From: Gemmatimonadota bacterium
GTDB lineage: Bacteria; JAAXHH01
Assembly (NCBI GenBank): GCA_009838645.1
Contig: VXRC01000035.1
Location: 1 to 64,000 of the forward strand
DNA length: 64,000 bases
Direction of reading: 5' to 3'
Shown here: in pieces, positions 53,395-54,676 of the stretch
How positions within the stretch are numbered: position 1 is the stretch's first letter
How the letters are laid out: the number at the start of each line of letters is the position of its first letter
Notes under the pieces: model-generated
The model's database searches: none
Told to the model about the DNA's origin: nothing
Seen by the model: the letters and a program-made list of their open reading frames with translations, nothing else
Made by a program: the position numbers and the translations under genes

Positions 53395-53428
53395 GCTGAT
53401 TTTGAAATCAGCACGTTTTGAAATCAGC
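53395..53428. repeat. Palindrome and direct repeat in the groES leader
   Basis: GCTGATTTTGAAATCAGC (53395-53412) has 8-bp arms around a 2-bp centre. The half TTTTGAAATCAGC is repeated at 53416-53428, 16 bp on. The block begins 33 bp upstream of the groES start codon and lies inside the leader of the predicted transcript. Confidence 0.8.
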
Positions 53429-53595
53429 AACATAGTGAACGATTATCTCGTCCGCTTACTTACATGCAATTACCGTGCCACCATGGATTAGACCGCTCGC
53501 CATTCCAAAAAACAAAATCTTAATTGTTTGTTATTTGTAGAGTTATATACATTGTAGCGAAAAGCCGAGTGGTACCGCCCCGCCGCCAAGTCTTC

Positions 53596-53635
53596 TGCCA
53601 ATTTGTCACATGTGCCGTATAGTGCCAAAATGGCA
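53596..53635. promoter_or_regulatory. Operator-like TGCCA-N3-TGNCA sites in the groESL promoter region
   Basis: A perfect inverted repeat TGCCAAAATGGCA is at 53623-53635, and an imperfect one, TGCCAATTTGTCA, is at 53596-53608. They are 27 bp apart (spacing of site starts) and lie around the predicted start regions. They may bind a repressor other than HrcA. Function is inferred from symmetry and position. Confidence 0.45.
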
Positions 53636-53642
53636 TTGTCAA
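53616..53642 (-). promoter_or_regulatory. Second groESL promoter candidate
   Basis: Minus strand TTGACA (53642-53637), 15-bp spacer, TATACG (53621-53616). The palindrome TGCCAAAATGGCA lies inside the spacer. Confidence 0.4.
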
Positions 53643-53658
53643 AATAACATAACAGGCC

Positions 53659-53687
53659 ATTTTAGTCATGCCTTACTGGCGTGTCAA
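53659..53687 (-). promoter_or_regulatory. Main groESL promoter candidate
   Basis: Minus strand TTGACA (53687-53682), 17-bp spacer, TAAAAT (53664-53659). It lies just downstream of the terminator of the DUF6338 operon. The start would be near 53652, about 290 nt before groES. The 53363-53743 stretch has no convincing ORF. Confidence 0.7.
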
Positions 53688-53743
53688 GGGCATTCGCAAT
53701 TCTGATTGTCTCCGTATGAAACGCTGAACCGATCCCTTCTACC

Positions 53744-53770
53744 AAAAAACCCCGCTCCGAAAAGCGGGGT
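53744..53770 (-). terminator. Rho-independent terminator after the proline-rich small gene
   Basis: Minus strand CCCCGC, loop TTTTCGGA, GCGGGG, then TTTTTT. It ends the DUF6338/small-protein transcript about 40 nt after the small gene stop. Confidence 0.85.
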
Positions 53771-53808
53771 TTGGGACCAAACGATTGTTGGATTTGAGGT
53801 CTTAGATA

Positions 53809-53967
53809 CTACCTGGGTTTGGAGGGTGGTTTCAGGGCGCTACCCACATTGGGAGGTTTCGGATTCGCTGGTTTGTTAGGGTTAGGTTTCGGTCTGAATC
53901 CCCTTGTTTCTATGTTCCTGCGGGTTGGTCCATACCCTTTTTCCGGAGGTTGGGATACTTTATTCAA
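53809..53967 (-). CDS. 52-residue proline-rich small protein (overlaps DUF6338 gene end)
   Basis: A short ORF translated from a TTG at 53967 that overlaps the last codons of the DUF6338 gene (ATTGAATAA). The protein starts MNKVSQPPEKGYGPTRR and continues with ETRGFRPKPNPNKPANPKPP. It is rich in Pro, Lys, Arg and Asn and has two loosely repeated units, KGYGP and RGFRP. It is hydrophilic, with no helix or signal, and is probably disordered and cytosolic. The overlap of 8 nt with the membrane gene, the AT-rich codon use matching it, and a terminator 39 nt downstream support one operon. I recall similar small proline-rich ORFs beside DUF6338 genes in other genomes, from memory only. Confidence 0.7.
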   Translation of the reverse strand: MNKVSQPPEKGYGPTRRNIETRGFRPKPNPNKPANPKPPNVGSALKPPSKPR

Positions 53968-54676
53968 TTGACTCCTCCTCTTCCTCAATCGGGATGAATT
54001 CTACTGAAGATACCTCCCCACTCGAAAGGAAAACACCACGACCCTGGGGAATCCAGTTATTCTGGTTATCAATTTCGTAAACTTCAGATATGTAGATATC
54101 CTGGTTTTCTATATCTGACGAAGCGAAACAATCAGAATCAAGCATCCCTCCAAACTGAACACCGTTTTTTAATGTAATCAGTACAAACTGTTCAACGGTC
54201 TCAGAAAAACACCATTCCCATGCTGTCGGAGTAGGTTGAATAGGGTTCAGTTTAAATAAACTCAGAATCCTGTAAACGTAACCCTTTGTTGCTACCCAAC
54301 CGGAAATCAACCCGACTAGAATCGGGACAATAACGACACAGATTAACGCTTTGAATTCGTCAACCGATGTGATGAGAAAGTGTGCTTCCGTAAAATTCAA
54401 TATCAACATCCCCAGTGGGAAAATCAATACCAATAAAACCAACCAGTAAACCGTCGAGACAGTCAGATAGGAAAGAAATCCTGCGGGGTACGGAAGGATG
54501 CTCCCTTTGACAAACTGTGACCTCACAAAAACAATGATAACCCCTGGTACTACTGCAGCTATGAACAGAACAAGCGTGGAACTCGGAACAGGACCATGCC
54601 ACTTTTCAATTAAATCGTTGAAAATCGATTCCACTATGACCTCTTTGTAGTCAGTCTCCACTACTGATTGAGCCAC
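53960..54676 (-). CDS. DUF6338 family membrane protein
   Basis: A 238-residue protein with three hydrophobic segments: TLVLFIAAVVPGVIIVFV, a helix around STVYWLVLLVLIFPLGMLIL, and LICVVIVPILVGLISGWVA. A cytosolic C-terminal domain follows, with FVLITLKNGVQFGGMLDSDC, FASSDIENQDIYISEVYEID and VFLSSGEVSSVEFIPIEEEE. This layout (helices then a small beta domain that may bind a ligand or RNA-like fold) is that of DUF6338. GC content is far below that of its neighbours, a sign of transfer. It is followed by an overlapping small proline-rich gene and a terminator, next to the groESL promoter. Function is unknown. Confidence 0.75.
   Translation of the reverse strand: MAQSVVETDYKEVIVESIFNDLIEKWHGPVPSSTLVLFIAAVVPGVIIVFVRSQFVKGSILPYPAGFLSYLTVSTVYWLVLLVLIFPLGMLILNFTEAHFLITSVDEFKALICVVIVPILVGLISGWVATKGYVYRILSLFKLNPIQPTPTAWEWCFSETVEQFVLITLKNGVQFGGMLDSDCFASSDIENQDIYISEVYEIDNQNNWIPQGRGVFLSSGEVSSVEFIPIEEEEESIE

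Follow-up and report, generated by a model that had tools for sequence, protein, structure and literature searches.

DUF6338 membrane protein genes and an overlooked proline-rich GYxP mini-protein encoded downstream of them

The two-gene islet and its surroundings

The window analyzed here is a stretch of 64,000 nucleotides of contig VXRC01000035.1 (assembly GCA_009838645.1) of a Gemmatimonadota bacterium. Between groES and a dehydrogenase gene, it contains a compact islet composed of a DUF6338 membrane protein gene, an overlapping small open reading frame (ORF) rich in proline and lysine, and a terminator (Table 1). The arrangement proposed by the initial annotation, including the start of the small ORF at a TTG within ATTGAATAA and a terminator located exactly 39 nt after its stop, proved correct to the base. 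Since relatives of the DUF6338 protein begin at MESIF, its true start may be the in-frame GTG at 54634. The protein matches the Pfam profile with a score of 100.1 bits (E 1.7e-28, gathering cut-off 26.5 bits) over positions 6-203 of 205. The terminator folds with an energy of -22.8 kcal/mol (z -2.3), and its hairpin is kept in all islet-bearing members of the genus that were aligned. GC3 reaches 0.46 in the small ORF and 0.44 in the DUF6338 gene, against 0.78-0.89 in groES, groEL and the dehydrogenase gene. A sigma-70 scan gave no convincing promoter directly upstream of the unit.

Table 1. Coordinates of the islet and of neighboring features within the window
Feature	Position	Strand	Description
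DUF6338 (PF19865) gene	54676..53960	-	238 aa from GTG 54676; three predicted TM helices (about 33-51, 75-93, 110-128) and a predicted C-terminal Sm-like beta barrel (about 152-230)
Stop-start overlap	53968..53960	-	ATTGAATAA; TTG at 53967; the two genes overlap by 8 nt
Shine-Dalgarno-like motif	53979..53972	-	AGGAGG(AG) just upstream of the TTG
GYxP mini-protein ORF	53967..53809	-	52 aa, MNKVSQPPEKGYGPTRRNIETRGFRPKPNPNKPANPKPPNVGSALKPPSKPR; TAG stop at 53811..53809; two G[YF]xP units (KGYGP, RGFRP) and a PKPPNVGSA...PPSKPR tail
Rho-independent terminator	53769..53744	-	hairpin CCCCGCTTTTCGGAGCGGGG at 53769..53750, T6 at 53749..53744
Conserved block upstream of groES	53600-53700		putative groESL promoter TTGACA-N17-TAAAAT at 53687..53659 (minus strand), followed by near-palindromic TTGGCAATGCCA/TTTTGGCA repeats
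Direct repeats upstream of groES	53400-53429		two 14-nt repeats TTTTGAAATCAGCA, 16 nt apart

The block upstream of groES is strongly conserved across the genus (same region of loci L213-L221) and looks like a groESL promoter with an operator distinct from the classical CIRCE sequence. The 14-nt direct repeats were also seen in one other genome of the genus (G009) but are absent from most other members.

The occupancy of the groES site varies within the genus, some metagenome-assembled genomes of which are labelled Candidatus Latescibacterota. The islet is found between groES and the dehydrogenase gene in the genome of the window (G000) and in G003, and is frameshifted in G011. In G008 and G009, most of DUF6338 is deleted but the peptide frame remains, with an altered C-terminus in G009. 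Five genomes have 435-569 nt at this site instead of 1509. A second DUF6338 unit in the genome of the window (locus L002, G000:C24:9462-9985) has an internally deleted membrane gene but an intact RGYRPKP peptide. Persistence of the peptide frame at G008, G009 and G000:C24 fits a restraint outliving a lost effector, but also plain decay. Across 12 genomes of the genus, a profile of the peptide finds it only at DUF6338 genes or remnants.

A conserved small gene downstream of DUF6338

The small ORF is a real and conserved gene. Both outcomes that had been named beforehand as refuting it, namely the lack of similar ORFs downstream of other DUF6338 genes and equal substitution rates at the three codon positions, were examined and neither was observed. 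Against its orthologues from the same genus, L018 and L008, omega is 0.19-0.26 and third positions take most of the changes (7/4/13, 7/8/20). Comparisons in ten other groups (Acinetobacter, Deltaproteobacteria and other subfamilies) gave omega values of 0.05-0.51 in close pairs, although some pairs are saturated at synonymous sites.

We gathered 88 DUF6338 loci by HMM search of whole genomes, pattern search and plasmid BLAST. A first alignment was too divergent for a pattern scan, while a narrower one gave 12 genome and 2 viral loci. A proline-rich ORF with G[YFW]xP or PPxGG/PPPPP lies directly downstream of DUF6338 on the sense strand in 48 of the 88 loci, against 14 antisense, 2 upstream, 1 about 0.7-1 kb downstream, and a mean of 1.8 (maximum 7) in 50 dinucleotide shuffles. 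As these motifs were chosen after the first loci had been seen, a motif-free test was also carried out. An ORF with at least 12% proline starts within -45..+60 of the DUF6338 stop in 43 of 68 non-actinobacterial loci, against 8.1 in shuffled DNA (maximum 14), and in 11 of 19 actinobacterial loci, against 4.6 (maximum 8). By eye, each of the 42 rows of the main non-actinobacterial clade of the DUF6338 tree has a peptide, two of which were found by hand (L050 with AWQP, and L208 with GWTP/GYQP). In contrast, several members of DUF6338 clade 2 lack a peptide (L019, L022, L061, L129, L130), and L019, L022 and L025, from Latescibacterota, represent a DUF6338 subfamily without any downstream proline-rich ORF.

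The 45 peptides analyzed have a mean length of 55 residues, 18% proline, a mean net charge of +5.6 and 2 cysteines in all. Forty-two start with ATG and 39 are preceded by a Shine-Dalgarno-like match of four or more bases. Sixteen overlap the DUF6338 stop and 26 start 0-30 nt after it, i.e., 42 of 45 start between the overlap and +30 nt. The recurrent word is G-Y-x-P (48 Tyr of 59; x is Gln in 37), often after Lys, Arg, Glu or Asp, in one to three copies, and the tail is PP-rich and often ends in Lys. The unit is best written G-Y-[QRKTG]-P, which is more general than the KGYGP and RGFRP units of the initial annotation. Acinetobacter carries three peptides in tandem. Examples from Escherichia coli include MSDTKRSYKEDGYTPIEKGYQPKNDLANNGFQPSKQTSQPAPPPKKP, whose ATG overlaps the DUF6338 TGA by one base. 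A natural in-frame fusion of the DUF6338 barrel with an RGYRPKP peptide, in which the N-terminal TM part is missing, was also found (L023/L042, G006:C1:2434141).

Five peptide classes follow the DUF6338 tree: A (GYxP), B (poly-Pro), C (PPxGGSG), D (KGGxNPP) and E (actinobacterial PPPxxVPS). Their distribution requires 16 changes against 36.7 when shuffled (0 of 200 as low), class D forming one clade (support 99) and class B needing 2 changes. Such clustering is expected for linked inheritance and hence shows co-inheritance, not binding. No family was found for the window peptide at E <= 1 in Pfam, PADLOC and NCBIfam, or at E <= 0.01 in PHROGs, and its relatives gave only sub-threshold chance hits. 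Likewise, DUF6338 matches no PADLOC, NCBIfam or PHROGs family.

In the literature searched, a single paper mentions DUF6338. In Pseudomonas stutzeri ATCC 14405, mass spectrometry detected three proline-rich proteins (SEPs) of less than 50 aa with 44-114 PSMs, predicted to share an operon with the DUF6338 gene Pstu14405_RS12030, whose product was undetected (PMC10433244). They were described as not conserved beyond the species and possibly de novo genes, without recognition of a motif or a conserved partnership. Their position, composition and copy number, three as in Acinetobacter, match the family described here, from which we infer, without sequence comparison, that they likely belong to it. 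If so, the lack of conservation would be an effect of BLAST thresholds on short, low-complexity sequences.

Predicted fold of DUF6338 and carriage by mobile elements

AlphaFold2 modeling on 57 homologues gave a mean pLDDT of 86, with the C-terminal barrel above 90. Hydropathy predicts three TM segments with more positive charge on the barrel side, suggesting that the barrel is cytosolic. The 50 best Foldseek hits listed against the PDB are Sm/Lsm or Sm-fold proteins, the best being 1th7 (E 5.9e-4, prob 1.0, target TM 0.73). The predicted domain shares the N-terminal helix and bent barrel of the archaeal SmAPs 1th7 and 1i8f, yet DUF6338 is predicted to be membrane-anchored, and RNA binding or ring assembly could only be assumed by analogy. 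A profile search of PDB sequences returned no relative of solved structure, and no Sm/Lsm chain up to E = 1. When the window protein was modeled with the stop bypassed in silico to read into its peptide, solely as a modeling device, the peptide was not docked (pLDDT 49-69, no structure in the tail); remote peptides, which could not be aligned to the fusion, were left out.

The unit recurs across several phyla and is carried by diverse mobile elements. These include a P1-like Klebsiella phage-plasmid, small mobilizable plasmids, a P2-like phage-plasmid in which DUF6338 is frameshifted, and a viral contig in which the unit lies between terminase-like and portal genes. A Tn7-like element of Proteus penneri pPp47 (L206) carries DUF6338, a GYxP peptide, TIR and caspase genes in one direction, near the resistance gene aac(3)-IId. 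The unit also occurs in E. coli prophages (ECONIH2, GF131, BCE049). A blastn search with the P1-like copy finds DUF6338 in 6 of 5,426 E. coli genomes, whereas the host prophage family is present in 157. In this prophage, located at shoB/yfhL (L237-L242), a cargo slot between a DEAD/SNF2 helicase gene and a VRR-NUC gene holds DUF6338 and the peptide in a few genomes, and a cytosine methyltransferase or other genes, including hypotheticals, in the three other members inspected. TIR and SIR2 genes (PADLOC PDC-S35, PDC-S25) lie nearby.

Defense genes are frequent neighbors of the unit. Besides those of the Tn7-like element and prophages, they include a CD-NTase with a CBASS-type 2TM (SLATT) effector, in one locus only among those examined, as well as E2-E1-JAB proteins and a reverse transcriptase. 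Methyltransferases are also among the direct neighbors. However, this is genomic context only, as the PADLOC scan of 110 neighbors yielded counts by family without a matched enrichment control, and other neighbors are ordinary (GrpE, adenylosuccinate lyase, EPSP synthase, and groES in the window). No neighbor family is conserved except the peptide.

Altogether, the interpretation proposed by the initial annotation is partly supported. A conserved pair of a membrane protein and a disordered peptide with a Gly-aromatic-x-Pro unit is strongly supported across several phyla, and signs of transfer are supported by low GC3, presence/absence at the groES site and carriage by mobile elements elsewhere. 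The suggestion of a defense or envelope system remains plausible but unproven.

Possible roles of the pair

We tentatively favor a compact accessory module, usually carried by mobile elements, in which DUF6338 would be an inner-membrane effector, acting by membrane perturbation or blocking of entry, and the peptide its cytosolic ligand. In this view, an abundant, basic and intrinsically disordered peptide, translated through a stop-start overlap or a very short gap and bearing one to three linear motifs plus a PP-rich or PPxGGSG tail, would bind the Sm/SH3-like barrel through its GYxP words and restrain (or arm) the TM domain. The peptide would serve as restraint and sensor, lost or displaced by phage infection or a competing element. 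Our analyses establish that the peptide is coding and conserved, its near-obligate position, the co-inheritance of its classes with DUF6338 clades and the carriage by mobile elements, as well as, at the level of a model, the barrel-plus-TM architecture. Direct binding, the effector role with any toxicity or phage protection, the polarity of regulation and the trigger are all inferred. Gene position, tandem copies, repeated words, clade-matched classes, the natural fusion of barrel and peptide, the abundance of the presumed P. stutzeri counterparts, carriage as mobile cargo and the defense neighbors fit this model, while the undocked peptide of the fused AlphaFold2 model, the lack of a match to any PADLOC, NCBIfam or PHROGs family, the ordinary neighbors and the peptide-less members of clade 2 speak against it. 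The predicted architecture is analogous to that of the S-2TMbeta effectors CBASS Cap15 and Panoptes OptE, two-gene mobile defense modules in which TM segments precede a small cytosolic barrel that binds a small ligand that switches membrane activity, this ligand restraining the effector in Panoptes (PMC12657218). Their ligand is a cyclic nucleotide made by a synthase, whereas here the proposed ligand is a genetically encoded peptide and no synthase is part of the unit. Homology between the barrels is not shown, the best structural hits of DUF6338 being Sm/Lsm proteins.

Two other readings are less likely but cannot be excluded. A toxin-antitoxin or addiction pair, in which DUF6338 would be a membrane toxin, the peptide an antitoxin that keeps the element in the population, and phage defense incidental, is doubtful. 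Carriage by small mobilizable plasmids and phage-plasmids fits this reading, as do the presence of a peptide at every main-clade locus with an intact DUF6338 and the intact peptides next to a broken DUF6338 at L002, L217, L219, L209 and, from the split frames, L032 and L141. Yet the excess of the latter is not significant given the fourfold larger target of DUF6338. Like type II modules, the pair consists of two small overlapping genes on mobile elements, but it matches no known toxin or antitoxin family, the gene order is reversed, the downstream peptide has no DNA-binding domain, and one to three tandem peptides are unusual for antitoxins. About as unlikely is a scaffold in which DUF6338 tethers to the membrane, through its barrel, a peptide that is itself the functional molecule, for example by binding nucleic acid or ribosomes. 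The peptides are basic, disordered-looking and cysteine-poor, those of P. stutzeri are abundant while DUF6338 was undetected, and Sm-fold barrels often bind RNA or peptides. However, the peptide sequence outside the motifs is poorly conserved between clades, and a tether alone does not explain swapping as mobile cargo.

A proline-rich antimicrobial peptide, with DUF6338 acting in export or immunity, is very unlikely. The peptides are short and Pro/Arg/Lys-rich, and the P. stutzeri study mentions antimicrobial roles for proline-rich proteins and the presence of DUF6338 in biosynthetic gene clusters (PMC10433244), but the N-termini are hydrophilic, without signal or leader sequence as judged by eye, and no protease or transporter gene recurs among neighbors. 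Finally, the view that the downstream frame is merely a GC/Pro-biased spacer or regulatory RNA, which could be suggested by its short length, low complexity and TTG start in the window, is contradicted by the omega values, motif conservation across phyla, Shine-Dalgarno sites and detection of the presumed P. stutzeri counterparts by mass spectrometry.

The physical association of small proline-rich proteins with one DUF6338 gene was already published for one species, but the pair belongs to no described system and the peptide to no described family. Should its function prove to be that of a toxin-antitoxin pair or of a CBASS-like effector, the unit would instead fall within those kinds of systems. 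It is possible, though less likely than not, that it represents a previously unrecognized, cross-phylum class of anti-phage or inter-element systems spread by prophages, plasmids and Tn7-like elements, in which a membrane-anchored Sm-like barrel would be controlled by GYxP peptides, as a bacterial counterpart of motif-barrel (SH3-like) signaling. Its occurrence in E. coli prophages makes its role directly amenable to testing in laboratory E. coli. The recurrence of the unit shows how a gene can be missed by annotation because it is short, proline-rich and overlapping. Three small proteins regarded as de novo and restricted to one species become probable members of a large family with an almost obligate partner and a defined motif, which gives DUF6338, a domain with no function, its first strong functional lead.
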